This document shows, piece by piece, positions 34,669 to 59,700 of a stretch of 64,000 bases of DNA (positions are counted from its first letter, which is position 1; every line of letters starts with the position of its first letter). The position numbers were made by a program, and so were the translations under genes. Origin of the DNA: a virus; IMG/VR virus record IMGVR_UViG_3300044641_002513, positions 24,897 to 88,896 of that record. One strand, written 5' to 3'. The notes beneath the pieces are model-generated. The model had not been told where the DNA came from, searched no databases, and worked only from the letters and a program-made list of their open reading frames with translations.

Positions 34669-35526
34669 ATGAGATTAGCTGAACTATACGCAAACAAATT
34701 ACAAGAATTACAGGCACAAGACCCACCTGACGGAGGACTAAAATCGTTAAGTGTTGAAGACCGTACTAAACTAGTTTACGATTATGTAGCTAAGAGTATA
34801 GCAAAAGCAAAAGAGTCGGGTGCTATAGCTCCAGGAGAAAACTTAGATGCTTTAGGAATCACTGCTCAAATAATGTTTGAGAGTGGTAACTTAGATTCAG
34901 AATTATCATCTAAGTACAACAATTTTGGAGGATTAAAAGCAAGTTCAAATTGGGGAGGAAAAACTGTAGCAATGAAAGCAGGCGACGGTAAAGTAGCTAA
35001 TTGGAGAGCTTACGATACACCTGAAGAAGGACTAGCAGCACAAGTAAACTTTTACATAGAAAATCCTAGGTATAAAAAGAACGGAGTGTTTAATGCTAAA
35101 AATCCTAAAGAACATTTAGAAGCTGTTGCTAGAGCAGGTTACGCAGGTAACGAATCTAATTATGTTAGTAGTGTAATGACAATGGTTAATAGTATTCCAC
35201 AAAGATTAAAAAAGAGTAATCCTGAATTATTAGCACAGTGGACTGCTCAAAAATCTACTATGGGAATGCAAGGAGTAGAACCTCAAGTAATACAACAGTC
35301 TACACCTGTACCTGTTGATGCTTATAACAAATTAAATATTTATCCAGAAATAAATAAATCTCCATATCAAAGTACTAGTATAGTAGGTATGGATAATATA
35401 AAACTATCTAAGCAACAACAAGGAATTGAAGACCAATTAACAGAAACAATGATTACTCCTGAAAAGATGACTGCACCTAAAGGTTGGTTTGGTTCAGGTA
35501 AATCAATGTTCTTTGGAAATAAATAA
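34669..35526 (+). CDS. Glucosaminidase-like hydrolase, paralogue of the upstream domain (285 aa)
   Basis: Residues about 25-185 align with the glucosaminidase domain of the preceding giant protein. Shared features are TAQIMFESGN (Glu 71 as the likely catalytic residue), KYNNFGGLKA, WRAYDTPEEGL, NPRY, AGYAGNE and NSIPQRLKK. The family cleaves N-acetylglucosamine bonds in peptidoglycan. No signal peptide is present, so it is likely a virion-associated enzyme. The Gln-rich C-terminal 90 residues have no recognised domain. The gene starts 11 bp after its paralogue, a clear tandem duplication followed by divergence. Confidence 0.65.
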   Translation: MRLAELYANKLQELQAQDPPDGGLKSLSVEDRTKLVYDYVAKSIAKAKESGAIAPGENLDALGITAQIMFESGNLDSELSSKYNNFGGLKASSNWGGKTVAMKAGDGKVANWRAYDTPEEGLAAQVNFYIENPRYKKNGVFNAKNPKEHLEAVARAGYAGNESNYVSSVMTMVNSIPQRLKKSNPELLAQWTAQKSTMGMQGVEPQVIQQSTPVPVDAYNKLNIYPEINKSPYQSTSIVGMDNIKLSKQQQGIEDQLTETMITPEKMTAPKGWFGSGKSMFFGNK

Positions 35527-35568: not shown

Positions 35569-38121
35569 ATGAACAGAGGAATTAACAATCCAGGATTTAG
35601 AGCATTACCACAAAGTGTACAATCTAAAATTATTTCTAATATGAAATACGGAGGAAAAATCTATGCTGAAGGAGGTAACTTAGACCAACTAACAGAGTTT
35701 ACTGAAGGTGGTACTCACGAAGAAAATCCAATAGGAGGCATTCCTCAAGGCACAGCTCCTAACGGACAAATAAACTTAGTAGAACAAAATGAAACTAAAT
35801 TAAATAACCAAAATTATATATTTTCTAACCAATTAAAGGTTAACAGTAAAATTGTATCGCAGTTTAACTTACTTAAAAGTTTTATAGGTAAAACATTTGC
35901 TGAAGTTTCTAAGAAAATGGATAAACCAAATTCTAGAAGAGAAAACGATACAATTGAAATGGCTGACACAGAACGTAACTTAAATAAGTTAAAAGAAGCT
36001 CAAGAGTTTCATAAACAACAAGAAGTACAAAAAAAGATTGACGAAATTATGGCTTTAGACCCAAATGCTTTAGCTAGCATGATGGGACAAGGTCAACAAG
36101 GTCAGCCTTCTATGGAACCACCTATGGACCCTAGTATGATGGCTCCAACTTCTCCTGAACAAATGAGTCCAGAAGAAATGGCGATGATGGAGCAACAAGC
36201 TATGCAACAACAAGGTGCTGCTACTGGAGACGCTGCTATGATGCAACAAATGGGTATGATGCGTAACGGTGGAATGATGTATGCCAACGGTGGTAACATG
36301 ATGGCGAATGGAGGTTTTGATGATGAGCCTCAGTTTTCTTTCCAAGTTACTAATCCTTATGGTGTACCTACTGAACCTACACCTGAACAAAAGAAATACA
36401 TGAGTCCTGCTTCTGCAATAGACCCACGTTACGGTGCTCTTTCTCATTTTGAAACTAAAAAAGAAGCAAAAGAATCTTTATTAAGTGGCAGAAATAGTAC
36501 TTCAAGAGCTTATTATAATAATCCTTTAACTGGTGAAGTAGGAGAGTTAATAGGAGATAATGATTACTTTGCTACTACTGGTGATACAGACCTTTCTGAT
36601 GAGAGACCTACTAGAATAACTAAAGAAAATATTACAAATATTTATCCTCAACCTGGAGACAATGGAGAAATAGGTCCTTATTATACACAAAACCAAGCTA
36701 CTAATTTTCAATCTGCTGGTGCAGGAAGACCTTATGCTAATCAATTTGGCAAACCTTACGATTGGCAAAATTATCCTTATAGTGGTTATGCCTATGAAAA
36801 ACAGTATAGTAAAGACGCACCTAACAAGTTTTTTACTAATCCAAATAATGAAGCTTCTCTTATTAATTTAGAAATTGAAGATTATAAATCAGATACACCT
36901 TATTACGCAAGACCGAAAACAAATGAAAAAGATTTAGGAGGATTTATAAAAGACAACAAGCAAGGTATCTTAGGTGGCTTACAAGCTGCTGCTGGTATCG
37001 GTGCTATGTTTATTCCTGGTGCTCAAGGTTTAGGTACTAACTTAATTGGTGGAGGTATTGGAAATATCACTGGAGAAATTCAAGGAGATAAACAAGCTGA
37101 AATGCAAAAGAAAGCTATGAATCAACAACAGTTGTTAGCTAAACAGCAAGCAAATATGTTACCACAACAAGGATTAGACCCTTACGGAAACCCTATGGCT
37201 CCACAAGGAATGTATAGTCGTTACGGGGGTAAGATGTATAATGTAGGTGGTTATATGAATGGTGGTTATGTAAACAACCTTCCTGATGAAAACAATATGA
37301 TAGACCCTAGCGATATAGCTAGTACAGGTGGTTTTTTAGAAACTCGTCCTAATACTACTTTTGGCAAAGGAGGTAATATGTATGACGACGGAGGACTTTT
37401 AAAATTAAGACAACAAGCAGAACAAGCTGGCCAATGGAATTTTGATCCAGGAGCTCCTACATTAGCAGAAGAGGAGAAAAAAGGAAACTACGCTGACGTA
37501 GGAGATTTAAGTGATACTACTATGGATTTAAGCATTAATCAAAGTCCTTTAGATTTTGGATTACAGTTAGCTCCAATTGCTTGGAACTTAGCTAAAGGTT
37601 TACAAAAACCAATGGAGTTTAAAGGAGAAGATTTTTATACTAAGATAGACCCTGCTTATGTTGATTATACTAATGCAGAAAACATTGCAAAAGAAACAGG
37701 AGCAGGAGTAATGAAAGGCATTAAAAACACAGTGCCAGGTGGAGGTTCTTATGCTTCTTCTATGTTAGCTTCTCAACAAAACTTAAACAAAGCGTTATCT
37801 GAAATAGGCTCATTAGAAGAAAACACTAATAAGAAAATCAAGGGAGATGCTGATAAGTTAAATATTACTAGAAAAGATGCTGCTAATATGCAAGCTCTAC
37901 AAATGAACTTAGCTGCTCAACAAGCTAAAGAGTTGTTACTACAAGAAGCATTAACACAAGGTAAAGGTATGAGTGAGCAAGGAACTGCTAATGATTTAGC
38001 ACAGAAATATGCTGTAATGTCTGCACCTGATATTAGTAGATTTAAAAAAGTAGGATACAATCCTTACTACCAACAAATATTAGAAAGTATTAAAAATAGA
38101 AAAACAACACCAAAAATATAA
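35569..38121 (+). CDS. Cargo protein with many Gly-Gly motifs (850 aa)
   Basis: The product combines helical, Gln/Met-rich stretches (about 190-230) with a repeated short motif: MKYGGKIYAEGGNL, MRNGGMMYANGGNMMANGG, YSRYGGKMYNVGGYMNGG and FGKGGNMYDDGGLL. A glycine-rich hydrophobic segment (ILGGLQAAAGIGAMFIPGA, about 465-485) could insert in a membrane. The same 'GGxxYxxGG' motif occurs in the 29636 protein, linking the two. It is probably an internal virion protein ejected with DNA. The leader AAAATTTTACT-ATGA is identical to that of the portal gene. No enzyme domain is recognised. Confidence 0.5.
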   Translation: MNRGINNPGFRALPQSVQSKIISNMKYGGKIYAEGGNLDQLTEFTEGGTHEENPIGGIPQGTAPNGQINLVEQNETKLNNQNYIFSNQLKVNSKIVSQFNLLKSFIGKTFAEVSKKMDKPNSRRENDTIEMADTERNLNKLKEAQEFHKQQEVQKKIDEIMALDPNALASMMGQGQQGQPSMEPPMDPSMMAPTSPEQMSPEEMAMMEQQAMQQQGAATGDAAMMQQMGMMRNGGMMYANGGNMMANGGFDDEPQFSFQVTNPYGVPTEPTPEQKKYMSPASAIDPRYGALSHFETKKEAKESLLSGRNSTSRAYYNNPLTGEVGELIGDNDYFATTGDTDLSDERPTRITKENITNIYPQPGDNGEIGPYYTQNQATNFQSAGAGRPYANQFGKPYDWQNYPYSGYAYEKQYSKDAPNKFFTNPNNEASLINLEIEDYKSDTPYYARPKTNEKDLGGFIKDNKQGILGGLQAAAGIGAMFIPGAQGLGTNLIGGGIGNITGEIQGDKQAEMQKKAMNQQQLLAKQQANMLPQQGLDPYGNPMAPQGMYSRYGGKMYNVGGYMNGGYVNNLPDENNMIDPSDIASTGGFLETRPNTTFGKGGNMYDDGGLLKLRQQAEQAGQWNFDPGAPTLAEEEKKGNYADVGDLSDTTMDLSINQSPLDFGLQLAPIAWNLAKGLQKPMEFKGEDFYTKIDPAYVDYTNAENIAKETGAGVMKGIKNTVPGGGSYASSMLASQQNLNKALSEIGSLEENTNKKIKGDADKLNITRKDAANMQALQMNLAAQQAKELLLQEALTQGKGMSEQGTANDLAQKYAVMSAPDISRFKKVGYNPYYQQILESIKNRKTTPKI

Positions 38122-38124
38122 CCG

Positions 38125-41112
38125 ATGCCAGTTAGTCCACTTTCTACGCCTTTAAAAACTGAATATAAACCTCTAGGTTTAGAAATGTTTGCACAGCCTC
38201 TTTCGGATATGCAAGCTAAGTACGATACTGCTAAAGCTGCTATCAACGACACTACTTATGAAATCAGTAGATTGTCCCAAGATGATGCAAGGGGAGCAGA
38301 ATTAATTAAAGAGTTAGATGAAAAAACTTCTAAGTTAGCTCAAGAACTAATTGCTACAGGAAACTATAGACAAGCTGCTGAACAGTTAAAAAAACTAAAC
38401 AAATCTTTTAGTCAAGACCCTGAAACTAAAGCTGTTATAAGTAACTATGAAGCTTATAAAAAAGCAGTAGAAGAACAAAAGAAACAATTAGAAAAAGGAA
38501 AGATATATCAAACAGATTTTGATACTTGGGATTTTATGGTTAGAAATCAGTTTAAAGGAACTGGTTTTGACCCTGCTACAGGTAATTACACTTCTATTAA
38601 CACTAGACCTCCTGAAGAAAATAGAGAGAAAGAAATAGAAGATTTGAGTTTAAAAGTAGCAGGAATGATGCCTGCTCAAGGTTATGAAACTTTACAAAAC
38701 TTAGGTGTTGAAGGAGTAGATAGAGCAATGTTAGAGCGAGTACATCAATATAGAGATTTAGGACAATCACAAAAAGAGATTTTTAATTTCTTATCTACTT
38801 CAGATAGATTTAGAGAATTTATTGATGATAGAGGAAAAAGAGATTTTTACTATAGCAATGAAAATGCTAAGATGCGTGGTAAAGGACAAGAGTTCCAAGA
38901 CGGTTTAGTAAATAGTGTAGTAGGAAACTTAGATAATAATATTAGAAACATTGCAGAAGCTAAAAAGAAGGACAAATCAAGAGCAAAAGAATACGATGTA
39001 ATTTTAGACAACTTAAATACACAAAAAAATAATATTATAACTGGGTACAACCAAGCTAAGCAATTAGGCACAACTGATGGGTTTGCTGAAAAGTTATTTA
39101 TAGAAGATAAAAGAAAACACTTTGATAGAATATCCTTAGCTGCTGCTGATGTAGTAGATTTTAAAAATGATTCTATAAATTTAAGTTATCAAGCTGATGC
39201 AGGATTAACAGCTAAACGTGACGGAGCTAAAAAGAAATTTGAAGAAATAGGAGATATTACTACTAATATAACAAGTGCTGACCCTAACTTTAAAATATTT
39301 ACAGGAGGTAGTACATTTACTCAATCTGAGAATAAAAATGCTAAAGTATTAGCTAAGACTGGTGGAGATATAATGAAAGCTATTTGGGAAACAGAAAAAG
39401 AGATTATACCTGAAAAAATGCAACAACTTGTTGGCAATAATAATTTAGCTCAGGTTAGTAAAAATTTAGCTACTACTAAAGTATTAGGAATATTTCAAAA
39501 AGAATACACCGATGTTATAACTAAAACTGATAATCAGATTGCAGATTTAAGTAATAAGATGGCTTCTGCTTCTAATCAAGCAGAAAGAGATATGTACAAA
39601 GCAGAAGGAGACGTTTTAGCTGAACAAAATTTAGAGGCAAGAAGAGCTTTAGGTTATCAAGAAATACAAATACAAAATGCTGTAGAATCTCAAATAGCTA
39701 AAACTAATGACCCTAAGATAAAACAGTTATATGAACAATACCAAGGCAATCCTATTGGGTTCATACAAGCTTTAAACAAAGCAGACAAAGAAGCAGTAGA
39801 AAAAACAAATGTTTTTTACGAAGAACAAAATAAAAAAAATAGATTACAAGCAGAAGCAATAGTAAATAAATGGGAAGATGAAAATAGAGGAGATTTAGCA
39901 TTGTTAAGTTACGATAGAGAAGATTTAATAAAAAAAGAAATTGCAAAATTAGAAAGTTCTTCTAGCATTGCTACTAGTGCCATAGCTCCTATATTAGCAG
40001 CAACTAACTCTGAAGAATCTAAATTACTTACAAATATTACTAATGCTTACAGACAAGGTATAGCTTTTAAAGATGGTTATATGGTTACACCTTTAGAAAC
40101 TGTAGTAAACAAATCTTCTATTGCGTTTAGTAAACAAGGTTTAGAACTAGCTAACAAATGGGTATTAGAAAACAGTACAGGTAAAGACCCTGCTAAAAAA
40201 GTAGAAACGTTTAATCCAATTACAGGAACAACTAAAATAGCTGGTAACTTTAGAGCTTACGATATAACTGGATACAAAACAGACCAACCACATTATGCAG
40301 GAATAGACCAAAATGGTAATGTTATTTTAAGATATACTATAAAAGATAATTTAGCTGGAGATAAAAGTAAAGTAGGTTCAGCTGTAGCTAGTCATATTAA
40401 AACAGGCAGACAAGGACAAGCTGACCCAAATAGTTTACCTGACAGTCAAATACCTATAACTCAAGCTGAAATTACAGCGTGGAAAAATGATAACCCTGAT
40501 GATTTATATGTAAGAGTTGAAGGCACTAACATAGGCTCACAGATTACTAACAATATAAAAGAAAGTTACGAAGAGTTAATGACGGCTGCTGAACTTGTTC
40601 CAGGAAACGAAGGAAAAGAAATGATGTTAAAAACTATTAACAATTTTGCTCCTATGTATCTAGTTAGCGATAACTCAAGAAGAGAAGCTTATACTAGATA
40701 TGCTGCAACTTTACAGGATGCTGTAGATAATAATAAATCTATATCACTACCGCCAGAAGGACCCGCTAGTTGGAAAGACAACGGTAACGGAACTTATACA
40801 GGACACATACTACAATACAGTGTTGAAAAAGGAGAAATAAAAGTAGTTCCTTACGAAATTACTAGAGATAGTAAAGGTAATGAAAGTGAGCCTAAAATGA
40901 TACCAGGTGCTGCATCAACTTTAAACTATTCAGGACAAAACTTACCAGTTGCTTTATTAAAAATGAATTTAATATACGGTACAGGTAGAGAAGAAGATTT
41001 AGTAGTAGTAAAACAAGGAACCGATAATGTTCCTTTTGTTCCTGCTTTTACTCAAACTTTTAAAGGCATTCCTACAAATAGTGCGTTTGCACCAGGAACA
41101 GTTATCAGATAA
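38125..41112 (+). CDS. Helical internal virion protein (995 aa)
   Basis: This is a long, mainly helical and charged protein. Residues about 25-130 form coiled-coil-like helices (MQAKYDTAKAAINDTTYEIS, EELIKELDEKTSKLAQELI-type), and more helices run to about 680. The C-terminal 250 residues are strand-rich (GNGTYTGHILQYSVEKG). It resembles podovirus ejection-protein layout (T7 gp15-like) in composition only. It starts 3 bp after the upstream stop, in the cargo cluster. Inferred to be packaged in the capsid and ejected; no catalytic motif is visible. Confidence 0.5.
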   Translation: MPVSPLSTPLKTEYKPLGLEMFAQPLSDMQAKYDTAKAAINDTTYEISRLSQDDARGAELIKELDEKTSKLAQELIATGNYRQAAEQLKKLNKSFSQDPETKAVISNYEAYKKAVEEQKKQLEKGKIYQTDFDTWDFMVRNQFKGTGFDPATGNYTSINTRPPEENREKEIEDLSLKVAGMMPAQGYETLQNLGVEGVDRAMLERVHQYRDLGQSQKEIFNFLSTSDRFREFIDDRGKRDFYYSNENAKMRGKGQEFQDGLVNSVVGNLDNNIRNIAEAKKKDKSRAKEYDVILDNLNTQKNNIITGYNQAKQLGTTDGFAEKLFIEDKRKHFDRISLAAADVVDFKNDSINLSYQADAGLTAKRDGAKKKFEEIGDITTNITSADPNFKIFTGGSTFTQSENKNAKVLAKTGGDIMKAIWETEKEIIPEKMQQLVGNNNLAQVSKNLATTKVLGIFQKEYTDVITKTDNQIADLSNKMASASNQAERDMYKAEGDVLAEQNLEARRALGYQEIQIQNAVESQIAKTNDPKIKQLYEQYQGNPIGFIQALNKADKEAVEKTNVFYEEQNKKNRLQAEAIVNKWEDENRGDLALLSYDREDLIKKEIAKLESSSSIATSAIAPILAATNSEESKLLTNITNAYRQGIAFKDGYMVTPLETVVNKSSIAFSKQGLELANKWVLENSTGKDPAKKVETFNPITGTTKIAGNFRAYDITGYKTDQPHYAGIDQNGNVILRYTIKDNLAGDKSKVGSAVASHIKTGRQGQADPNSLPDSQIPITQAEITAWKNDNPDDLYVRVEGTNIGSQITNNIKESYEELMTAAELVPGNEGKEMMLKTINNFAPMYLVSDNSRREAYTRYAATLQDAVDNNKSISLPPEGPASWKDNGNGTYTGHILQYSVEKGEIKVVPYEITRDSKGNESEPKMIPGAASTLNYSGQNLPVALLKMNLIYGTGREEDLVVVKQGTDNVPFVPAFTQTFKGIPTNSAFAPGTVIR

Positions 41113-41140: not shown

Positions 41141-44100
41141 ATGCCAGAAGAAGACAAACCTGTAAAACCCAAAGGAGTAAAAGGCGTTTCTACTGTTGGA
41201 GGACCTTCTATAACAATTCCTGATTATCAGCCGTATTACGAATACTTAAAGCCTACTACGGATAAAGAGAAATTCTTAGCAGGAACTACTGGTAGTATAA
41301 CGTCTGGCATGACTGATGCTACTATTAAAACTACTGGTTTAGTAGATGCTAGATTAGCTAGTTTATATACTCCTATAAACTTAGCTAAAGCTATTCCTGA
41401 CCAATTTGAAAGAGAAAAATACATAGCAGAGCACGGGTCTAAAATGGTGCAACTATTAGACCCTAATAAATATGGTATTAAGTTTAACAATGATGCATTA
41501 GATTACAGCATATTTAAAGCTAAGAACTACGATATACAATTAAAAAAGTTCTTAGATGATTTAGATGAGAACCAAGGATTTTTAGCAGCATTAGGTAACA
41601 CAGGTGCTAAGTTAGTAGGTAAAACTGCTACAGCTGTAGGAGGATTAATACCTTTAACTTACGGTGTTGGTGCTGCTTTATTTAGTTGGGATTCTAAAAA
41701 ACTATTTGACAATACATTATTTGATGCTTGGGAATCAGCTGACCACTACTTAGATAGAAAGTTTGCCGTATACGGAGGAGCTGACTATTCAAAAGGAGAT
41801 AAATCTTTCTTTGGAAGATTTGCTGACAACCCAATGAAAAGTATCAATGCTGATATTATTCCAGCAGCTGCATTTGTTGCAGGAGCTGTCTTAACAGAAT
41901 TTGCAGCAGGTGCAATTACAGCTGCTACAGGTGGAGCCGCTGGAGGAGTGTTTGCAGCTAATACTGCTAGACTAGCAGCACAATCTGTTAATGTTTTTTC
42001 TAAAGGAGTTAGAATAGCTAGAGGACTAGATACTTTATCTGACTTTAACAATATGAGAAAAATAGTTGACCTAACTCAAAAGATAAGAACAGGTATAGGC
42101 ACAGCTACTACTATGGTTCGTACAGCTGGTTACGAGTCAAGTTTAATTGCTAGAGATACTCAAAAAAGAACAGAGCTACAAGGTAGACTAAACTATATAC
42201 AAAGCAATCCTGAGTTACACGAACAAGCAAAAGTATTAGCTGAACAAGGTTATACTGAAGATGAGATTAGCGAAAGATTATCCGAAAAAATTGACCCATC
42301 TGTATTATCAAGAATAGATTATGCTGCTGAACAAGCAGGTGAATTAGCCTGGTTTTCTAACGTGCCACTAGTAGGGTTTTCTAATATTATTCAGTTTGGT
42401 AAAAGTTTAAACTTTAGTTACCGTTTAGGGAACTCTTTAAGCAAAGCTTCTAGAATTAATCCATTAAGAGGAACAGTTATCAATGAAGCTGGAGAAATGG
42501 TTTCTAAAGCATCTGTTGCTACTAGAGGACAAAAAGTATTAGGCTACGGAATGACTGCGGCTAAAGGAGGTTTAACAGAATCTTTTGAAGAGTTTTCTCA
42601 AGGAGCAATGGAACAAGGTTACTCTGATTTCTACGCTTCTCAGTTTAAATCTTCTAACATAAACAATACTGTAAGCTTTATAGACTCAATGACTAAAGCT
42701 ACTAGAAACTATTGGAACTCTACAGAAGGTAAAGACTCAATGACTATCGGTGCTTTAATGGGTATGTTAGGTATTCCTTTACCTATTTCTATTGACGCAC
42801 AGACTGGTAAAGGTAAACTAGGAATGCAGTGGTACGGAGGAGTTTACGGAGAATTTAAAGACCTTAAAAAAGATATAGCAAGAGATAAAGAAATAGCAGA
42901 CTTAAGAAATAAAAATAGTATTAATCCTGTCTTAAAAAACAATTTTGAAAATGCCATTAAGAATATGGACATTCAAGATGATATGGATGAAGCTATCAAA
43001 AAGCAAGACGTATTTACTTTCAAGAACAAAGAGTTTGAACAATACCATACTTTTGTTAATACTAGACATAAAAACGGTGTATCTGATACTATCTATCAAG
43101 ACTTAGATGCATTAGACCAAATGGACTTAAAAACTTTTAATGACCAATACGCATTTAAAGGATTTGAGTTTACAGCTGAAACTAAAAAAGAAGCTATTGA
43201 GAAAACTAGAAAACAAACTAAAGATATTTTAGCTTCTCACAAAGAAGTAGAAACTTTATTTAATGATTCTAGACTAGCTGTTGACAGATTGTTTAACAAG
43301 AAGTATAGAGATGCTGACGGTAAACTAATGTTTGCTCTTAAAAAAGCTAATGGAGATATAATAGATACACAGACTGCTTATGAGTTTATGGACGTACTCC
43401 AAAACGAATTAGTTTATCTACATAGTACTAACAAAAACTTAAATAAAAGAGAAAAAGAATTAAAAGAACAAATAGGTAATTTAACTGGTAACAGTTTTAA
43501 TACTTCTCTTTCTAATAAAATAGTAGCTAAAACAGCAGGTGTATCAGAGAAAGACTCAGATATATCTATTGAGTATGCTACAACTGCTAGAGAAATGTAC
43601 AAAGCTCAGTTAGCTGAGTTAAAAGAAAGTGATCCTATACTTTACGATTTAGTAGAAGCTCAGTTAAAACCCTTAGTACAAGATTTAATTAAGCTTAACA
43701 ATAACAAAGCTAAAAACGCTTCTCTTTACAATACATTGTTTACTGAAAAAGGAGCTAGAGATTTTATTAATCTACATGCTGAGTACACTGCTAAAAAAGG
43801 CGAAATAATTAAAGAAGCTATTCTTAAGAAACGAGAAGAAGAAACTGCAAAAGCAAGAACTTCTGAAACTGTAAAAAAGGCTAGCGTAGACGAACAAGCT
43901 CTTAACGGCACTAATACCATTGCTTCCAACAAAGCTAAAGCTGAAATGGATGCAATGAATGAAGCTCTTTCTAACATAGCTGCTGAAGAATCAAGTGGTA
44001 GTACGGGAGACCTTTCAGAATTAATTAATTCAGTTAGTGGAGATGTTATTGTTGAACAACTTCAAAAATCACCTGCACTTTTTATACAGGTACTAGAATA

Positions 44101-45265
44101 CTTAGAAAAACAAGGAACTCCTTTAATAGGCATTAGCAACATTGATCAACTATCTGAGACAATGGCTGCTGACCCTTCTATCATAGGAACACTAAGCAAT
44201 GCTTTAATGGCTCTTAGAGAACAGTATAACAAAGCTACTGTAGTTCCTCCTGTTACACTAGAGTACGCTGATACTACTGACGAGAATGATGTAACTCCTT
44301 CTAACAATGCTTCTTTAGCTGACCTTTACAAAGGTAAACTAGAAGAACTAAATGCATTAAGTATATTCCAATCAGGTTCTAACGTTAGTGAGCAAGCTAT
44401 TATTCCTGTAACTCACGATAAGAAAATTACTAACGGTGAAGTAGAAAGAGACGAAGCAAATGGTAAGTTTAAACCTTGGTACTTTGTTAGTCAAGGACAA
44501 GTACTTACTTCAGACCAACCTGTTGATGCAGCGTTACTTAACTCTCCTGAGTTCCTAAACAATGAGGAGTTAGGTTCTAAAGTTGTTAATGCTACTTTTA
44601 AAATTGCGGACAACGACTACAACAAAACAGATAGAGCTGCTGAAGATATTGCTATTGACATTTATCACAACGATGTATTTATAGGAAGATTACCTGCTTT
44701 TAAAGAAGGTATGGCTAGTCATCTATTAGCTTTACGTCAAGCTGTTGTAGCTCAAGAAACAGTTGCTCCTATAACTACTAATCAAATGTCTGTTGGTAGA
44801 CAATTATCTACAACTGCTGTTCAAAAATTAAATAAATTAGGTTTTACAAATGATGTAATTACTTCTATGTCTGATAAAGATGTAGAAACAGCTAAAACAT
44901 TTTCTTCAAAAGAAGATGCTAAAGAAATGCTTGATAAGTATGTTAAACCTGCTGTAAATACTAATCAACAAGAAGTAGAGGTATTAAGAGCTAAGGAGCA
45001 AGAAGAAATAAAAGCTAAGTTTCCTGATGCTGAATATAAAGCTGATGGTAAGATTGATGTAACTAAGTTGTCTGCTAAAGATAAAAAAGTTTATAAAGAT
45101 ATTTATAAAAGATATGATGCATTAATTACACCTCGATTAGAACAAGCTAAAAAAGATGCTAAAGAAATAGTAGATAAAAACTTTGAAGACATTGCTATAC
45201 AGCTTGCCAATAGTAAAGATGAAAGATTCTTTAATGAGAATAATGAATTTAAAAAATGTAAATAA
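41141..45265 (+). CDS. Large internal virion protein with membrane-active segments (1,374 aa)
   Basis: A strand-poor N-terminal part precedes two hydrophobic clusters: VGGLIPLTYGVGAALFSW (about 165-182) and AAAFVAGAVLTEFAAGAITA with a Gly/Ala-rich extension (about 240-285). A third lies at about 535-552 (IGALMGMLGIPLPISI). The rest is helical and coiled-coil-rich, with a Lys/Glu-rich end (about 1230-1374). Hydrophobic hairpins inside a giant cargo protein suggest a trans-envelope channel during ejection, as for podovirus internal-core proteins. Function is inferred. The gene lies just before the ferritin-like gene. Confidence 0.5.
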   Translation: MPEEDKPVKPKGVKGVSTVGGPSITIPDYQPYYEYLKPTTDKEKFLAGTTGSITSGMTDATIKTTGLVDARLASLYTPINLAKAIPDQFEREKYIAEHGSKMVQLLDPNKYGIKFNNDALDYSIFKAKNYDIQLKKFLDDLDENQGFLAALGNTGAKLVGKTATAVGGLIPLTYGVGAALFSWDSKKLFDNTLFDAWESADHYLDRKFAVYGGADYSKGDKSFFGRFADNPMKSINADIIPAAAFVAGAVLTEFAAGAITAATGGAAGGVFAANTARLAAQSVNVFSKGVRIARGLDTLSDFNNMRKIVDLTQKIRTGIGTATTMVRTAGYESSLIARDTQKRTELQGRLNYIQSNPELHEQAKVLAEQGYTEDEISERLSEKIDPSVLSRIDYAAEQAGELAWFSNVPLVGFSNIIQFGKSLNFSYRLGNSLSKASRINPLRGTVINEAGEMVSKASVATRGQKVLGYGMTAAKGGLTESFEEFSQGAMEQGYSDFYASQFKSSNINNTVSFIDSMTKATRNYWNSTEGKDSMTIGALMGMLGIPLPISIDAQTGKGKLGMQWYGGVYGEFKDLKKDIARDKEIADLRNKNSINPVLKNNFENAIKNMDIQDDMDEAIKKQDVFTFKNKEFEQYHTFVNTRHKNGVSDTIYQDLDALDQMDLKTFNDQYAFKGFEFTAETKKEAIEKTRKQTKDILASHKEVETLFNDSRLAVDRLFNKKYRDADGKLMFALKKANGDIIDTQTAYEFMDVLQNELVYLHSTNKNLNKREKELKEQIGNLTGNSFNTSLSNKIVAKTAGVSEKDSDISIEYATTAREMYKAQLAELKESDPILYDLVEAQLKPLVQDLIKLNNNKAKNASLYNTLFTEKGARDFINLHAEYTAKKGEIIKEAILKKREEETAKARTSETVKKASVDEQALNGTNTIASNKAKAEMDAMNEALSNIAAEESSGSTGDLSELINSVSGDVIVEQLQKSPALFIQVLEYLEKQGTPLIGISNIDQLSETMAADPSIIGTLSNALMALREQYNKATVVPPVTLEYADTTDENDVTPSNNASLADLYKGKLEELNALSIFQSGSNVSEQAIIPVTHDKKITNGEVERDEANGKFKPWYFVSQGQVLTSDQPVDAALLNSPEFLNNEELGSKVVNATFKIADNDYNKTDRAAEDIAIDIYHNDVFIGRLPAFKEGMASHLLALRQAVVAQETVAPITTNQMSVGRQLSTTAVQKLNKLGFTNDVITSMSDKDVETAKTFSSKEDAKEMLDKYVKPAVNTNQQEVEVLRAKEQEEIKAKFPDAEYKADGKIDVTKLSAKDKKVYKDIYKRYDALITPRLEQAKKDAKEIVDKNFEDIAIQLANSKDERFFNENNEFKKCK

Positions 45266-45276
45266 ATAATAAAACA

Positions 45277-45750
45277 ATGGAAAAATTACTTACTGACCTA
45301 GAACAAAAAGAATTAAATAAGTTTGGTAAACTAGAATTAACAGCTTCTCAAGCTTACTTACATCTATCTAATAGAATGAAAATTTTCGGTTACTTTGGAG
45401 CTGAAAAGTTTTTTTTGAGTGAGTCTAACAGTGAAAGAAAGCACTACGTTAAAATTGCAAAGTTTGCTAATAATTTAGGGTGTGAGCTATCTGTAGAAGC
45501 ACTTATAGCAGTGCAGTGTGATTGTACAGATATAAAAAGTAGTTTAGAGATGGCTTACCAAATGGAAAAAGATTTGCTGATGGAATACGAAAAGTCTGCT
45601 AAAAACCCAGAACTTTCGTTAAAAGTTGTACTTTTGTTACAAGACTTTACCACACATCAGGTAAGAGCTGTAGGGGAGTATGGAGACTTACTTGCACGAT
45701 TAGCACTTACTGATAATATGTTATTGTTCGATCAAGAACTAGGTAATTAA
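45277..45750 (+). CDS. Ferritin-like protein with a conserved di-iron ferroxidase centre (157 aa)
   Basis: Length and sequence match bacterial non-haem ferritins (about 165 aa, four-helix bundle plus a short fifth helix). Compared from memory with E. coli FtnA without gaps in the first half, ligands align: E20 (FtnA E17) in KLELTASQAYLHL, E53 and H56 (E50, H53) in SERKHYVKIA, E97 (E94) in AYQMEKDL, and Q128 (Q127) in TTHQVRAVGEY. The third-site residues E49, E126, E129 and E130 are replaced by Ser, His, Arg and Ala. The C-terminus LLFDQELG fits FtnA YFIDKEL. It probably oxidises and stores Fe(II). It lies 11 bp after one cargo gene and 11 bp before the giant polymerase gene, so it is co-expressed with virion proteins. 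A phage ferritin there is unusual. Confidence 0.75.
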   Translation: MEKLLTDLEQKELNKFGKLELTASQAYLHLSNRMKIFGYFGAEKFFLSESNSERKHYVKIAKFANNLGCELSVEALIAVQCDCTDIKSSLEMAYQMEKDLLMEYEKSAKNPELSLKVVLLLQDFTTHQVRAVGEYGDLLARLALTDNMLLFDQELGN

Positions 45751-45761: not shown

Positions 45762-48700
45762 ATGGCTTGTAAATATTGGTATGACGGTAAGTGGCGTACG
45801 GAAACGGAGTTTAAAAAAATCTTATCTGAAGGTTTACTTAATAACTTATTAGCTGACAATACTGTTAGCTTAGAACAGTTAATGCCTAGTGAGGCTACAC
45901 AACAAACCTTAGTAGAAGAAGGAGCTACCAAAGCTCCAGTTACTCTAAGAATACGACACAAAGCTCAAACCAAGATTAACAACGGCCGAGAACCAGGAAA
46001 ACCTAACATTCCTCTTGCAAGAAATCCAAAAGACGTAATAGAAGAATTTGTAGCTCAAGGTGGTAAACCTTTTGAATTAAAGTTTGTAATAAAAGTTAAA
46101 GGAGAATTAAGAACAGGTAAAGGTTCTGCAAACGAAAAACTTAAACAAAACTTATTAAGTTCCCCAGTTGGGAACAAAATAGTAAGCCAGCTACAAGAAG
46201 GTATTGTATATATGCTAGTACCTTCTGTTTACGGAATGTATCCTATTAGAGTCTTTAACAACTTCCTTACTAATACTAAAAGTTTTGGTACAGTTAAACA
46301 AGCACTAGAAGATTTAAAAAAATCTACTAAAGTAGAAGACATAGCTAAGCATAGAAAGACTATAGAGTCTTTACTCTATCGTACTACTGTAACTTACGAC
46401 AATACTAAAAAGACTTTTACAGTCAAACAAATTGATGGTAAGAATAACATTCTTGCTCAGACTTTTCCTACTACTAAAGATGTTGCAGATTTCTTAGGTA
46501 AACAATTACAAAGAGTTGCTTACAATAATATAAATAGTGGTAACTATAACGAAGTACTAGCATCTAACGGAGTTATTACTACAGACTTATTTTCTGATAG
46601 TGCTAGCTTTTTTAACTCATCTTCTTTTGTCTTAGAAGCTTTTAGAATGTCTGAAAAAGACCAAGAGGCTTTAGACACTGTATTTGATTTTACTTTTGAT
46701 GAAGAATCAATAGCTGCTGCTACGGTTACTACTGAAAAGAATGAAGAACCTATTACACCGTCTCAAAACAAGACTGCCGAAAGCCCTATCTATTCTGCTA
46801 CTATTGACGAACTGATACCTGAGATAAAAGAAGAACCAGGTCCCTCCATAACTATTAAATTAGATGCATTAGCTAATGACGCATCTAAGTTTGTTACTAT
46901 AGAATCTGTTGTTAAAGGAGGTAAAATCTTAGTAAGTAGAGTAACTAAAAAACAAAAAGTAGTTAAAAAAAATGAAACAGATACTTTTGAACCTATATAT
47001 GATATTACATCAGGTAATGCTTATAAAGAAGCTGTATTAAAGTTCTTTGATAGTAAAGAAGTTAAAGCTAAAAAAGATGAGTTAGCAGGTAAACCGACAC
47101 CTGTTGCTAAACCTATAGAAGCAGTTAATGCTAAAAAAGCAGAGATTAAAGAATTAGAAAAAGAAAAAGCTGGTTTATTAGCACAAAGTAAAAGTTTTGA
47201 AAAAATTACAGCTAAAACACCTAAAACTGTTTCTGTATACTTAAGTTCTGCTAATACTGACGGTAGTTTTAATAAATCTTCTGAAAAAAAATCTTTTGTT
47301 GATGGTGCTTCTATACTTGCTTTTGAGCCATTAGGTAATAATAGATTTGCTGTTTACATAGATAGTAAAAATCCAAGTGCAGTAAAAATGGCTTTGCAGT
47401 ATCCTGATAAAAGAATAGACCCAACTTTTGATAGAATATCTGCATATAATCCTAAAGCTACTTCTATACAAACAGTAAAACCTAGTATTGTAGAATTACA
47501 GGGCGACAAGTATATATTAATAGAAAAAGGAACAGTTGACTTTGACAATGTAGGAATAAATAGAGAAAATGCTAAAACTACTGATGTAGATACTACAAAA
47601 ATAGATGATAGCATTAATAAAGCTAAACAAGAACTACAAGCTATAGAAAGCCCACCTACAGTAACATTAATAGCTGAAGAAGTTGGATCTAATAAAGTTA
47701 ATATAATACAAACAAATAAGCCTACTATCCAAACAATTGGTAATGTAACTTTTGGTACAGCTAATAAACAAGATACTAATGAAAATAACGAAGATGCTGT
47801 CTATGTAGATACAGTAAATGGAATATTTATTCTAGCAGACGGTATGGGTGGAGAGTATGCAGCTTTTGGGGTAGCTAGAAACTTTTCTAAAGACACTATT
47901 AATTACTTACTTACAGGTAATTTTTCAAGTTCTCTTACAAAAATAGTAGAGTATATAAATAGTAAAAAAGGTGCAACAAAAAATATAAATGAGTTACATA
48001 AAGAAATTGAAAATATATTAGGTTATAAACTTAGTTCTCAAAGTGCGGAAAAAATAAATGAATTTATAATTTCTGTTTGGAACAAAGAGACGGTTAGTAC
48101 TCAAGGAAATAGATTAGGAGCAACAGCTTTAAAAGCAGAAAAAATAAGTAGTAATACTTATAAAATTCAAAAAGTAGGAGATACTGTATTTTTTGTAGTA
48201 GATAAGAATGGCAAAGTTGTTCAAAAACACGGACTTTCAGATAATGCTTCAACACAAGGTTATTTAACTTATTTGAAAGATGGAAAAGCTTTTACAAATT
48301 CCCCTAAACTAGATGAGTTTACAGTTACTTTAAATGAAGGAGAAACTTTAGTTTTATCAACGGATTTTATAGAAACAGATAAAGCTATCCAAGATTTTAT
48401 TGATTCTAAGTTTGGTAAAAATTTAGATTTTGCTAAGTTTCAAGAAAATAATAAAGATGATGATTCTACATTTATTACTATTGAATATGATACAGATGTA
48501 GTTGCTCCAAAACAATCTACTGCTGAAGAAGTTGCTCCTGCTGCACCTAAAAGTTTTATGGGTGACGTATTAGCTTCTATGATTGATGTAACTGCTACAA
48601 TGGAATCAGCTCCTATAGATATTAAACCTGAAGAAGGTACAGAGCAAAGTCTAGAATCTTTAGTAGCTGCACAAAGTAATAGAGAAATAGTGCCTGAACA

Positions 48701-51700
48701 AGATATTAGTTTTGAGGATGTATTTGGAGATGATTTAGATACAGAAGGATTTGACGGAGCTACTAACAGAGGAACTCCTAATGTCAAACTAAAAGCAACT
48801 GAAACTGTTGATGGAACTTCTTGGAGTCAAGCAGAAGAAATACAATACTTAAAAGATACAATTGGAGTACAGTTTGAAGAAGCAGAAAAAACTAATACTC
48901 TAAAACTATTTAACACATTAGAAGATTTAGAAGCATACTTGCCTAAAGAAACTTACGAAATGTTATTAGAAACAAGACGTAACGGTAAGTTTGTCCACGG
49001 TTTATTTACGACAGCTGCTGTGTTTATGGCAAGTACAGCTGAAGCTGGTACTAGTTATCACGAAGCTTTTCACGTTGTATTTAACTTAGCTTTACCACTA
49101 GAAAAACGTATAGCCTTAATTAACGAAGCGTATGTAAAATATAGAGCAGAGTTACTTGTAACTAAATATACTAACTCTAAAGGAGAAACTAAATTTAAGT
49201 ATCCTACTTATTTAGAAGTAGAAGAGTTACTTGCGGATAAGTTTATGGAGTTTGTACTTAACAAAGAAGTACTACCTAAAGAAGAAGCAGTTGAAGAAGG
49301 TCCTAGAAAAAGAATACCTATACTACCTAAGTTTACTAGCTATACTACAGAAGAAGGCTACGTAACTGTTCCTAGTGTAGAAAAAGAATTTAAAGAAATA
49401 GGAAAGTTTTTCAAAGGACTTTCTAGAATGTTGACTGTTTTCTATAAAAAGAATAGAGTAATTAATATTGATAATTTATTTGAAAACATTGACTTAGGAG
49501 TTTATAAAGACAAAATTAACTTTAGTAAAACATCTATTCCTAACTTAGCTAGATTACACGCTACTGACGTACAACATAGATACGTTAACCCAATTGAAGA
49601 AGCACATGCTTTTGAATACCTAAGTTCATTAAAAGATGAAATATTAGAGCAATACCGAGCTAAAGTAGACCCTAGTTACAAATTAAATCCTAAAGAGTTA
49701 ATTGCAAAAATGGGAGTACACACAATGTACTCATCTATGCTTAGTAAGCTAAAAGCCGAGGCTATTTACAACAAGAAAAGTGGTAACACAGAAATGGCTC
49801 AACGCCTTGCTAAACTTTATTTCATTTTTACTAATGGCAAAAAGAATATAAAAGATACAGTAATTGAAGGCAAAGGAATTGAAGTAACTGAATTTACTGA
49901 AGCAAGTGACTTGTTATTACGTTTCAATAGTAGTCTTAGAAAAGAAGGATTGTATATTACTTACAATGGATTAAAAGATGCTAAAGTAAAAGAAAAAGGT
50001 GTAGAAGAAAACGAAGAAGACAGTTTTAAAGCATACGAAGAAGGAGAAGATACCTACGAAGAATCTTGGATGCGTTCTCACATTGAAACTAATCCGATGG
50101 AGTCTACTAGTCAACGACTAAAAAGTTTCTTTGCAAAGATTCCTAAGTACAAATCTACTAGAAAGAACAGTGCTACAATGGTTAATTCTTTTGGAGTAAC
50201 AATGAAAGAAGACCCAGGAGTTGTATTTAAAACATTAGCTACTAAAATATCTAACAGCTATTCAGTTAGTGATATGTTAACTAAGTTATCTAAGATAAAC
50301 CGTCCTTATATTAAAGACGTATTAAACGAGATAACTAAAGATGAAAAACTCTTAACAGACTTATGGATAGCTATAGGACAAAAAAGCTTTACTACTTTCT
50401 CATTTGTTTGGGAAACTAATAACGAGATGAGAGTAGTTACTTCTAACAGAAAAACATTAGACAATGTTATTAAAGAAGAACTAATAGCTAATTTTTTAGT
50501 ACCTAGTAATCCACTACTTAATACTAAAAACAATGTATTTGATGTAGAGCGTGTTAACACAGACGAAGCTGCTAATTTCTTAGAAGATTTAAATACTATT
50601 TTGCCTATTTTAAATAATACAGCATTTTGGAATAATAAGAAAGAAGTAATAGACATGTTCAACAATGTTGCTAAAACTTTTCAAAAATATAAAATAGAAT
50701 TAACTGCTGATGATTTAGTTAATGTTTGGGAAAAAGGAGGAAAGCAAGAATCTTATAAAAATGTAGTTGAAGTAATTGAAACTATTCAAAATATTGCTGT
50801 AGAGCTAGTTAAAGGCAACAATCCTTTTACTTCTTCTTATCCTACTGAAGAAGAGATTAGTAGAGAAGTAAAAAAAGAAGGAAGAACTTTATTAGAAAAA
50901 CTTGCTAAACAAATAATGCCAGTAGTAGAAAAGGATATAATTCTTGCTTCTAGAAACATTAATAACAAGACAGTATACAGTCTTATTCAGTCTGGGTTTA
51001 TTAATAAACAGATGGAAACTTATAAGAACCGCCAAAAGCTAACAGAATACTACGAAAGTATAAAGAACGATGCTTTTGTATCTGAGTTACCCTTACTAAA
51101 AGATTTACTAGACGATACTAATAACACTCAAGATATTCTTAGTGTAATCTTTTTAGACGGATTTACTCGTCAAAACAAGAATAAAGCTGTTACCTATACA
51201 GATATGTCTGATATAGAAATGGAAGCTACGTCAATGGCAATGTTCTATAACAATGGAGCTAACGATGCTTCATTCTTTAAAATGCCAATACCTTCCGATG
51301 CTCCTACTTTACCTTATATCAAAAGTAATAAGTTAGAAAGAGAAGAGATAATAGACAAGTTAGTCCTAACAGCTAAAGCAGAGTATAACAGAATTAGAAA
51401 AGTTAAGACTGCTGATGATAATGTACTAGACTTAATCCCTAACTATAAAAAAAGAGGAGAAAAGTTTATACTACTTAGTTTCCTTAACGGAAAAGTTAAC
51501 ACTAATCAAAATTTTGATGAAGCTCTAGTAAGAGCTGAAATAGATAAGTTCTTTAGCTACGACATCAACATAAGTCCTTTTTTCCAAACAGAAATGGCTA
51601 AGTATAAAAAAGAAGGTATTATAACTTCTTACAACGCAGAAACAGGTGCTATTAATTTTGCTCCAGAGATAATGGATAAGACTATTAAAGACGGTACTAC

Positions 51701-54700
51701 TTTCTTTAAAAACTATCTACTTAACACTTATTACTTTAACACTCAAATAAGTACTCTCTTAGCAGGTGACCCTGCTTTTTATAAAAGTACAGGTGACTTA
51801 CAAAAAAGATTTAAACAAGTAATAAGTCCAGGAACTTACGCTAACACTAGTCAGCTACCTACTTATTACAAAGCAATAATTCTTAATGATGAAATAGTAC
51901 CTACAGAAAAAGCAACTTTTGACCACATCGAATCTATTATATCTAAGTCTAACTTAACTCCATCAGAAAAAAATTCTTTAATTGCTTTTTGGACTGCTAA
52001 GACTACTGCTAAAGACGGTAACAATACTTCTGATGCTGCTACTTACTTATCTCCTGAATTAAGAAAACAAAGATTAGAGGCTTTAGGTAGATGGACACCT
52101 GAACATGATAAAGCGTACGAAAGAGTATTAGCAGGAACAGAGACTATAGAAGATTTGATGTTAATGGATCCACCATTTAAACCTGAAAAACCTTTTGTAT
52201 TTACTCAAAGAGTTGTAGAAAACGGTGATGGTACTACTACGGTAGTTCCTATTCAAATCAAAAACGCAGAAACAGTTTTAACTAAATCTTTTGCTCAAAA
52301 GAAAGACCAGGATGGTAACTTCTTGTATCCTAAATTAGCAGCTATCTATGAAGATATGGTTGTTAATCAGTTATATGACACTGCTATATTTGAATCAGCT
52401 GTTAAAGTAGGAGGTATAGGAAACACTGTTGAAGGGGGTAAAGTAAGATTTACAGATTACACTGAAACTGATGGTAAGTATTCAATGCCTGAAGGAGCTA
52501 AAATACTAGACTTAAGACACGAAGACTGGAGATTACAGCAAGAAACTCCTCCTCACTACATTGATGACAAAACTAACTTTGCTACACAGTTAAGAAACCT
52601 TATCATAGCTGACTTAGATATGAGTGGCGGTTATACTATTGGTGGCAAAACTTTTAAAGGTGCTGAGTTAGCTCTAATGTATCAAAAAATAGTAGTTGAA
52701 GATTTAAAATCTTCTTTTGAAGAAGTATCAGAAGAGTTCTTAAACAGTAATGGAGATATAGACTACACCAAATTAGTAGAAATATTAAAAGAAGAAATAC
52801 TAGACAGAGACTTAGGACAAGATTACTTAGATGCTATTGCTTTAGTACCTGAAGTATTAGTTGACGGAAGTCAAACTATGACTACTACTCTTCCTTTATA
52901 CCACCCAATGATTATGTATAAGATGGAGTCTGTACTAAACTCTTTCTTTAAAAACAGAGTTACTAAGCAAAAGATACGAGGAGGCTCACTAGTCAACACT
53001 ACTTCTTTTGGCGTAAGTGACAAATTAAAAATAGAAGTAAGTGCTGATGGTACTATTACTTATCAAGCATTAATGCCTCATACTTCTAAAAAATATTTCC
53101 CTACTAACGAAAATGGAGAAGTAGATATAGAGTTTGTTCAAAAACACGCAAAAGAACTACTTAAAATTATCGGTATCCGTATTCCAACAGAGGATAAATA
53201 CTCAATGTTTAATATTAGAATAGTTGGATTTACTCCTCCTGCTATGGGACCTGCTATTATTCTTCCTAGAGAAGCTACTACTATGGCTGGGCTTGACTTT
53301 GATATTGATAAATTGTATTTTATGTCTAGGGCTTTTACTGTTAACAAAAAAGGTATCCCAAAAATAGTTAAATACATCAAGGCTCCTAAAAACAAAACAG
53401 AAGCATTAGAATCAGCTTCTAATATTTATGCTGATTTTAAAAGCTTTAAAAAGTTTGCAGAGAAATATATCAAAGACCCTAAACAACGAGAAGCTGTATT
53501 AGAAGCTCGTAGAGCTCTTACTGATAAGCAAGCAAGCAATACACTTAGTTCTAAAGAAATAGAAGAGTTTAAGGCTACTATAACAGCAGAAAAAAAAGAT
53601 AGAGATGCTGCTAAAAAGTTGTACGGTAAAAACTCAGAAGTGTATAACAAACATCAAGATAATATTGACAACTTGTATGCAATTTTTAACGAAGAAATGG
53701 AAGTCTTTGATGAACGTAAAGCTGAAATAGGAGACCAAGCAAACGAAATACTTGATACTATAGCTGATGTATTGCTAGATGTGAAGTTTAACTCTGTAGA
53801 GTTTAATACTAAACAAGCTAGAGATAATATGAAGTTAGATATAATGGAGGGTGTACTAGAAAACAGTCACACAGCTCCTAGTATTCTTAACGTAGGTAAC
53901 TTTGATATATTAAAAGAACGTGCTGCTAAAATTAGATTACTACAAGAAGGTGTAGACCCAGCTACAGTAAACAGTTATAGTGGAGAAACACTAATGAAAG
54001 AATCAGAAAAACTAGATGATGCAGAAGGATTTAATTTCTTTTATCCTAGTGTGCAGTTAGAGTTGTTTAAGAGAAATATGATGGGTAAAAAGCTTATTGG
54101 TATTTTTGCTAACCACAACACCCACCACGCCAAAGCACAGTTTACTAATCTTCAACTTAAAAACGAACTTATACTAAACGAGCAATCGTATATAATGTTG
54201 AACAAACAGTACGATAATGACGGCAATAGAATATCTAGAAAGCTAGCTACCAACTTAGCAGCTGTAGTGGATAATGCTAAAGACCCAGTAGCTTCTTTTA
54301 TCAATATGAACACGTTTACTGCTAACACTATTGCTCTACTAGAGCGTTTAGGTGTTAGTGATGATTACATCTATGCACTTGTTAATCAGCCTGTTGTACT
54401 AGAGTTAACTAGAGAATACTTTAATAACCAAGGTTCTTTAGTAACAGAAAAGAATTTTGCTAACATTAAAAATAAGTGGCAAACAATACTTACTAAAAAA
54501 CTTAAAGAAGCTCCTGAAGAAGAGTTAGCTATAAGTATAACAACAGATACACTAGAAGATAACTTAAAAGGAGATGGCTCTACTCAATACTATAAAGTAC
54601 AGTTAGAAGCTTTAAAACTATTTGAAAAGTTGTATGGTATTGGAGAAGAGTTAGCTGTAGGTATTCAAGCTGCTAAAGTTGATACTACAGGTGTAGGACC

Positions 54701-56797: not shown

Positions 56798-59700
56798 ATG
56801 TCTTACTGTATCAATATAAATCATCCTGAATACATACAATTATTACAAAATTCTAACCTAAAACCAGCTGTATTAAAAGCTAAAATAGGTGTGTGGATGG
56901 AAGAGAATAATAGTACGGATTTTCCTACTTTAGAAGAGTTAAATGTAACTTCTGGGACTGTTAATGCTACTTTAAAAATTATTGATGCTTTAGAAAAAAT
57001 ACAGCGTAATGTATTTAGTCAAGATAAGTTACAAGGTTGGGTTAACGATTTGCAAAAACAAGGTGCTTCTAGTCAACAAATAGGGCTTTTTAAAGAAGTT
57101 GCTAAACCAGGAATGACTAAAGACCAAATAGCTACTAGTATTGCTGCTAGTTATAGTTATACTGTTGAAATTAATACTGCTATTAAAGATGTTACAAAAG
57201 AACTTAATCAAAGATTAGATTCTTCAGAAGAAGAATATAATTCTATTAAAACTAAGGAAGTTGAATCGACATCTAATCCTTCTAGTATTACTAAAACTTT
57301 TTATAAAACTTTTGGAAATAATACATACACTAAAACTATTACAACAAATCCTATAACAGGAAAAGAAGAAAAACCAAAATATTTTATTGCTTCTAAAACA
57401 GTAAACCAAACTGATTACTACTCTAACCTAACAGTTCCAGGTGGTACTAACTATACAGAAAACGAAATAGCTACTCCTGAAATTATACCTAGTATAAAAG
57501 GACATGCTCAGTTTGCTACAGATAAAGGTATTGGTTGGTTTAGAAGTGATGAACAAGCTAAAACATATTATGATTCAGAAGTAGGAGAATATTTAGTTGA
57601 AACTGAAAGTACTGGAGATTTATTTGAAGATGTTTTTGGTACTAATAAAAAAGTAATACCAACTACTACTAAAACCCGTAGAATACTAGAAGTACAATCT
57701 GATTTATTTCAGAAATGGAGAAATAATTTTGAATTTGAAGGTAATAAATATACTGCTAAAAAAGATAATAATAATGTATGGCATTATTATAAAAATGGTA
57801 GTGAAATAAATTCTAATGAATATACTAAAATTTGGGATACATTTTTAGAAACTTATTTAGATAATGCAGATGCTTTTACTAAGTTGTTACAAAAAGACAA
57901 TAACTGGGTAAACTTCTTTGTTAAATCTGTTATACAAGATAGTGCTAAGAAAGGATATGAGAAAGTGTTATTTCCTAGTGGTGATACAGCTAGTAAAGTA
58001 GAAGGTCATACTACTTTAGAAGAGTTTAAGAAACAGAAAGAAGATAGGATTAAAGAACTTGAAGAAAAAGAAGTTAATAAAGCAAAAGATATTGGAAAAA
58101 ATATAGATTTACCATTTCCTGATGCTAAAGGTATTACTTCTTATATATATACACAAAGAGAGTATGAAACTTGGAAAGAGCTTAATCGTAGGGAAATAAC
58201 TCAACTTAAACAAGAACTTGAAAGAGTAGAAGGTCCAGAAGGATTTGGTGCTTTAAAACCTATCTACAACTTCTATGAGAACACTGTAAAAAACATTCTT
58301 AATAAACAATATGGTAAAGAGAATGTAAAACAAATTACAGACGAATACGGTAATACTTGGAATGAGGTTAGTGTAGAAGTACAACCTGCTAAAGATACTA
58401 TCTTATATCAAACAGATAGAGCTAAATCTTACCAACAAAAAGCTAAGACTATTTACTTTAATGAAGTAAGAGGCAAGCAATTAAGTAATTCAGATATATC
58501 AAATATTAATGCAAAACTAAGAAAGCTATCTGATGAAATAGGAGATGTTAATTGGAATTTAAGACAAAGCAGTAATACTAATAATTACTACATAGCTGGT
58601 TACAAAAATGCTCCTGTAACAATGGACGACTACTATTCTCCGTATGCAGGAGGAATGTTTAGACAATTAACTACACAAAGTTTAGAGTCAAGAGTAGAAG
58701 AGTTAGATAAAAAGTTAATGAGTTGGGCAAGAAAGCACGGTATTTCTGTAGAAGCCTTAAAAGCAGTAATGGAGAAGTTTCCTGATAGATATGATGGAAC
58801 AGCTTTAGGTATTGCTGATTTTGCTAAGAAGTTAATTGCTGTTGCTGATGGAGCTCGTATAGACACTTTACCTGAAGAGATAGCACATTTTGCTATCGAA
58901 TTACTAATCAAAGACCCTACTGTTGTACAAGCATTAGAAGAAGTTGTTAATACACCTGAATACGCAGAAGTTAAAGAAGATTACAAAGATATTTACGAAG
59001 AGGAAATAGACTTTAGAAAAGAAGCTCTAGGTAAAATACTAGCTCAAGAGATAGTTACTAACTTTAAGAAGTCTCAAGAAAACCCTAATAACGGTTTTTG
59101 GAGTAAGATACTTGATATTGCTAACAAGTTCTTTAACTGGGTAGGTACTAACTTTTCTAAAAAATCTGCACCTAGAACTGCTATTGAGGCTGTTGTAATA
59201 CCTCTAGCTAATAGTATTTTAAATCAAGAATATTTAGGTACTCTAGATAATATAGATTTAAATATAGAAGAAGAACCACAAATACTTTACCAAACAAATC
59301 CTAATGCTCAACCTGTTACTAATAGTAATGTTGAACAAAAGAAAAAGTTCTTAGAAGGAGTAGTAGTACAATTAAATAATAGAGTAAAAAGATTTAAGAA
59401 CTCTGCTAAATCTCAAACAGAGATTGTTGCTCTAAACATAGAGATAACTAAGCTACAAAAATTAATAGCTCAATCTGAGTTTGATTTAGGTATTAGTAGT
59501 TTTGCTCAATTAGCTAGTAAAGAACTAGATGCTATTTTATCTTATTTAAATAAAGCTCTAAAGAATAAAAACCTTAATGGAGATAAATTAGCTTTAGCTC
59601 AAGAATTTGAAGAAACATATACTTCTTTATTCTTAGAATTAAAACAAAGTATGTACGAATACGAGTTTGAAGAAACTGAAATTGATGCTTTATTAGCTAT

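Follow-up and report, generated by a model that had tools for sequence, protein, structure and literature searches.

Why would a phage encode a ferritin amid the genes for its virion cargo and RNA polymerase? The question is raised by a gene with an ATG start at positions 45277-45750, on the plus strand of the window, i.e. the whole 64,000-nucleotide stretch analysed here (positions 24897-88896 of an IMG/VR virus record of 88,896 bases). Its product has 157 residues, a mass of 17.9 kDa and a pI of 5.1. A preliminary description of the window had called it ferritin-like from the sequence and proposed a profile search and a structure prediction as a 24-mer. The profile search upholds the assignment: the protein matches Pfam PF00210 (Ferritin) with 42.1 bits (E=1e-10), above the curated cut-off of 24.5, and it also scores just above the cut-off of the Rubrerythrin family. 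It is the only PF00210 match in the entire record. Eight diverse viral relatives exceed the PF00210 cut-off as well, as does one sequence, L053, later placed among bacterial ferritins. As for the structure, the prediction concerned the monomer only, and to that extent it agrees with the proposal. The AlphaFold2 model, computed with 13 relatives (pLDDT 94.1, pTM 0.88), is a four-helix bundle followed by a short C-terminal helix E (A 7-36, B 40-66, C 86-108, D 115-144, E 148-156). Its top Foldseek matches are the bacterial FtnA-type ferritins 3qz3, 4ztt and 1eum, at a TMq of about 0.9 and 17-21% identity, and its TMq to ferritins ranges from 0.90 to 0.94. The identification of the 45277-45750 ORF as a genuine ferritin is thus secure.

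The residues that make a ferritin a ferroxidase are in place. With the annotated Edwardsiella FtnA (L055) as the reference for residue matching, E20, Y27, E53, H56, E97 and Q128 of the window protein align with E17, Y24, E50, H53, E94 and Q127. The five ferroxidase ligands, whose retention had been noticed at the outset, are E20 (codon 45334-45336), the bridging E53 (45433-45435), H56 (45442-45444), E97 (45565-45567) and Q128 (45658-45660), all encoded on the plus strand; each is invariant in the 97 distinct viral relatives that we collected from IMG/VR (97/97). The tyrosine next to the di-iron site, Y27 (codon 45355-45357, plus strand), is Tyr in 89 of the 97 and Trp in the other 8. As the identity of these relatives to the window protein drops to approximately 31%, and as the median pairwise dN/dS in the crAss-like group is 0.147 (about 0.15), indicative of purifying selection, the ligand pattern is not a matter of chance.

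The third iron site, site C, has a different fate. Its FtnA residues E49, E126, E129 and E130 correspond to S52, H127, R130 and A131 in the window ferritin, so that the early remark that all four are replaced holds, and the protein does not belong to the bacterial FtnA subtype defined by this site. In the bacterial references, Glu occupies nearly all four positions (43/43 sequences). Other subtypes do not fit either. Bacterioferritins take the ligands of the second half of their site from an E and an H on helix D; these would replace Q127 and E130 of FtnA, and the window protein has Q128 and A131 there. Dps proteins have an inter-subunit ferroxidase site and no helix E, as opposed to the intra-subunit ligands and the helix E found here. 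Q128 opens a phage-type signature, Q-x-x-(A/S)-V-G-E-Y, whose variable position is Ala in our 16-row alignment and Ser in other members. E134 and D137 are invariant in all 32 members of the window family included in our tree. Judging from these residues, the window ferritin is apparently an active, iron-oxidising enzyme, which would use O2 or H2O2 as the oxidant of Fe(II). In animal H-ferritins, which release peroxide, the stoichiometry is about two Fe(II) per O2. Since the loss of site C makes the phage protein resemble them, its chemistry may differ from that of Escherichia coli FtnA.

The ferritin gene is embedded in a long run of genes on the plus strand. It starts 11 bp after the stop codon of a 1374-residue ORF (41141-45265; phrog_32390, annotated as of unknown function), and another 11 bp separate its stop codon from the start of a 3677-residue ORF (45762-56795), exactly the spacing from two giant genes given in the preliminary description. 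The latter ORF was identified as the virion RNA polymerase through a family alignment and the sequence GLDFDIDK, with DFDID at residue 2512, which we take to be the catalytic motif of crAss-like virion RNA polymerases. A probe drawn from window positions 51300-52500 of this ORF yielded no matches, because the conserved motif lies outside the probe. Upstream, it holds homologues of the crassvirus tail ring protein 1 (24562-25383; PF24228, 151.8 bits) and muzzle protein (25383-29633; PF25731, 456.6 bits). Further on, it encodes a homologue of cargo protein 1 of 850 residues (35569-38121; PF25725, 94.8 bits, with tblastn matches to Bacteroides crAss-like phages) and a 995-residue ORF without known domain (38125-41112), conserved in eight related loci (L001-L006, L018 and L019). 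A 1875-residue ORF (56798-62425) closes the cargo/RNA polymerase block. The ferritin gene therefore lies inside the cargo block, as had been claimed, with the ring-1, muzzle and cargo-1 homologues upstream, the DFDID ORF directly downstream and a like arrangement in its relatives.

Several other features of the block deserve mention. Between the muzzle and cargo-1 genes, two adjoining plus-strand genes carry glucosaminidase domains, namely a 1673-residue ORF (29636-34657; PF01832, 74.8 bits) and a 285-residue lysin (34669-35526; PF01832, 68 bits). Domain searches of the giant neighbours of the ferritin gene were mostly empty. Within the RNA polymerase ORF, the stretch encoded by window positions 47700-48698 resembles PP2C phosphatases (PF13672, E=1.9e-4, 21.5 bits for a cut-off of 24). 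Inspection by eye of the same ORF pointed to a metalloprotease-like HEAFH motif and a NADAR-like C-terminus, neither of which was confirmed by Pfam.

How widespread is this arrangement? A tblastn search with the window protein against 50,697 phage records found no PF00210-type relative, and other family members retrieved only doubtful fragments from phage records, with no clear phage isolate harbouring the gene. In IMG/VR, successive rounds yielded 16, 51 and then 125 matching stretches, from which the 97 distinct complete proteins were taken. The search in related crAss-like genomes that had been advised recovered the gene in the same block (L001-L024): in every locus long enough to include the DFDxD RNA polymerase ORF, the ferritin gene directly precedes it on the 5' side, often with overlapping start and stop codons between the two. 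Two arrangements occur in these loci, with an upstream ORF of either 1300-1700 or 2700-3000 residues; in the latter, the motif is found only some 270 residues into the next ORF.

Other phages place the gene differently. In a more distantly related group (L025-L033 and others), its neighbours on both sides are giant ORFs to which no function is assigned; some of these loci have weak matches to the muzzle protein, and one protein weakly matches Cellulophaga phi38:1-type phages in tblastn. A comparison with phi38:1 virion proteins gave no match for the giant neighbours of non-crAss ferritins, only for more remote genes. One of the neighbours, a 1284-residue ORF (L030, 6139-9993), combines ParB-like and methyltransferase-like PHROG matches in a single chain. 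In L034 and L036, which represent a fourth lineage, the ferritin gene is found between minor-head-like and neck-1-like genes, and the capsid protein of this phage resembles that of Bacteroides phages. Finally, another podovirus lineage (L041-L051) has it immediately behind the portal gene (phrog_6547, E=2e-64), and portals akin to this one occur in phages of Flavobacterium and Cellulophaga. The portal-adjacent ferritins correspond to phrog_16594, a PHROG annotated as of unknown function rather than as ferritin. Their match to it is clear (E=1e-9 for L043), whereas that of the window protein is weak (E=0.012).

We also quantified the proximity to large genes. A same-strand ORF of at least 700 residues is present within 150 bp of 76 of 84 ferritin genes of the window family (clade I) and of all 10 genes of a second viral clade (clade II), as against 14 of 125 controls (other ORFs of 120-220 residues in the same loci); because the loci are related, these counts are not independent. 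In four of the eight clade I exceptions (L017, L041, L042 and L044), the stretch ends within the neighbouring ORF. The ferritin is an accessory gene, given that it occurs in the fetched stretch of only 32 of 160 crAss-like RNA polymerase loci and is missing from the other 128. Among 17 records without a ferritin gene near the RNA polymerase gene, one (G243) has it elsewhere: in this crAss-like record (L409, 5981-6993), a ferritin gene far from that of the RNA polymerase adjoins a Clp-protease-like gene, with a beta-helix gene nearby.

To place the phage proteins, we built trees with 43 bacterial ferritins, mostly of Bacteroidota, picked for their best match to the phage profile. The comparison with host-type ferritins, also called for in the preliminary description, sets the phage family apart: clade I has a branch support of 98/93, which becomes 100/99 after the addition of the Helicobacter pylori and three animal H-ferritin sequences and the omission of L263. 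Clade I is a phage-specific ferritin clade. A first scan of genome contigs with the window family brought up no close bacterial donor; the best Bacteroidota ferritins by profile reach E-values of approximately 1e-21 only and fall outside the clade. A kinship with animal H-ferritins was hinted at by sequence matches in the PDB, but the tree does not join them. MT838721.1 (L053), a gut record named 'Bacteriophage sp.', was discarded as a source of phage ferritin; its ferritin clusters with those of Phocaeicola, and the record probably represents a piece of bacterial DNA in the phage collection.

Clade II was found via the crAss-like RNA polymerase ORF. It comprises nine members (support 100/100): L155 13941-14459, L157 14866-15378, L158 14723-15220, L164 13824-14318, L173 9019-9513, L234 2843-3328, L249 10447-10929, L251 13040-13531 and L256 13009-13506. 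Their genes are mostly 3', and some 5', of the RNA polymerase ORF, they keep site C, and their predicted fold is that of a ferritin (pLDDT 92.7). A joint clade of I and II is not rejected by the AU test (p=0.59, with the long-branched L263 left out of the tree), and the two may go back to a single capture or to two independent ones.

What is this ferritin for? The recurrent placement beside head, ejection and RNA polymerase genes makes packaging more likely, and virion cargo is our leading reading, to which we hold without great assurance. Its broader form, that several phage lineages including crAss-like phages package a ferroxidase ferritin with their ejection proteins and RNA polymerase, and deliver it for the handling of iron or peroxide at entry, is more tentative. 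The main competitor is that the protein is made late together with the structural proteins and stays in the dying host, where it would store or oxidise Fe(II) and protect DNA, both replicating and packaged, against Fenton damage, with the position in the cargo block setting only timing and dosage. Late operons can indeed include genes whose products function solely inside the cell. The full ferroxidase centre and helix E are as in cellular cages, and the patchy presence is that of auxiliary genes. Furthermore, none of the 97 proteins has a packaging extension or domain or is fused to a giant ORF, and the G243 ferritin is far from the RNA polymerase, two observations that count against cargo. 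Such an intracellular role also has parallels in the Dps and Mn-catalase genes of other Bacteroidetes phages, the Gratiaviridae, interpreted in terms of stress tolerance (PMC8008677), and in giant-virus ferritins, read as regulators of iron availability during virion production (PMC7136201). By itself, however, it leaves unexplained why unrelated phages have repeatedly placed the gene by those for the portal, minor head, ejection and RNA polymerase proteins. We regard it as a real possibility and rank it behind virion cargo, as unrelated phages share this neighbourhood.

The remaining explanations are less probable. That the fold has been repurposed to serve the cargo/RNA polymerase assembly structurally or as a chaperone, its iron chemistry being incidental or lost, would suit the loss of site C, the new invariant residues E134 and D137 and the isolation of clade I from cellular ferritins. 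It is nonetheless unlikely in view of five di-iron ligands that persist unchanged across the family. Slightly more doubtful is a 'Ferrojan horse' variant, in which a mineral core in the virion aids attachment or supplies iron to the new infection. The ferroxidase centre is compatible with it, and a ferritin-like protein seen by mass spectrometry in virions of the kuttervirus Sajous1, gp217, assigned by Phyre2, was interpreted in this manner (PMC10892097). Yet gp217 has only 117 residues and belongs to DUF5856 rather than PF00210 in Pfam, so that we rejected it as a relative, and its authors observed that the pathway was not required in the single host they examined (PMC10892097). Moreover, a loaded cage would not fit through the tail channel (PMC10172136). 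Nothing was found in favour of an artefact of assembly or the capture of a bacterial contig, extremely improbable readings that the relatives already refute: the same gene recurs at the corresponding position in many separate IMG/VR contigs, and a phage-only clade, distinct from the 43 bacterial ferritins and set in a conserved phage context, rules out bacterial contamination.

If virion cargo is the right reading, the ferritin would be translated from one late-gene run together with the cargo proteins and the virion RNA polymerase, co-assembled with the cargo and carried in the particle. The cargo zone of the capsid might hold it in the form of monomeric subunits, of dimers or of a small number of cages, and it would then either be delivered with the RNA polymerase or stay behind. 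An assembled ferritin 24-mer measures about 12 nm. This is wider than the tail constrictions of less than 50 Å (PMC10172136), and delivery would therefore require disassembly or unfolding of the cage, unless it remains in the particle. By removing Fe(II) and peroxide, the protein could prevent damage to the DNA and to cargo that is refolding, from assembly and storage through to the opening minutes of infection. Whereas the family, fold, ligands, purifying selection, gene position and its recurrence are established, we infer the enzymatic activity, the joint expression with the cargo, the packaging, the delivery and any benefit to the phage; the same holds for detoxification of iron or peroxide at entry and for the loading of virions with iron.

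Since ferritin relatives adjoin particle-building or giant genes in several lineages, an enzyme for handling iron may be among the proteins that phages carry or deliver. Its presence in virions would make it the first phage-cargo ferritin of which we are aware, and would put on a concrete, testable footing a notion discussed for a long time, that of phage particles as carriers or handlers of iron. Should its action be confined to the cell, a ferritin clade exclusive to phages, devoid of the bacterial site C and located next to head and ejection genes in several lineages, still shows that phage biology selects for iron oxidation. In addition, phrog_16594 acquires an identity as a ferritin.

The ferritin family itself is well known, but it has not previously been linked with Crassvirales in the open-licence literature that we searched; a description elsewhere is possible, and the preliminary description similarly knew of none in the crAss cargo cluster. 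Compared with FtnA of E. coli (1eum) and Vibrio cholerae (3qz3), the window ferritin has the same fold with helix E, the same five ligands and Tyr, and a similar length. It differs in its site C, in the signature Q-x-x-(A/S)-V-G-E-Y-x-D and in an identity of about 17-21%. Eukaryotic H-chain ferritins provide its best sequence matches in the PDB and share with it the lack of a bacterial-type site C, similar ligands and a helix D of the type Q-x-x-A-x-x-E-x-x-D; they are apart in the tree, however, and from our reading of the alignment their acidic pore positions are not conserved in the phage protein. The giant-virus ferritins are likewise virus-encoded, but they belong to eukaryotic viruses, have been read as metabolic and lack a cargo context (PMC7136201). 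Phage Dps and Mn-catalase are enzymes of the ferritin superfamily from other families (PMC8008677, PMC6669764), and the Dps gene of Lactobacillus phages is near replication genes rather than in a cargo block (PMC6669764). The closest parallel for the locus is phi-crAss001, in whose virions cargo-1, cargo-2 and RNA polymerase proteins were identified by mass spectrometry and whose capsid cargo zone was measured at approximately 5 MDa (PMC10172136). Although no ferritin has been described in it (PMC10172136), its gp45-gp50 genes form the same block, with homologues of the cargo-1 domain and of the RNA polymerase between which the window phage has its ferritin.
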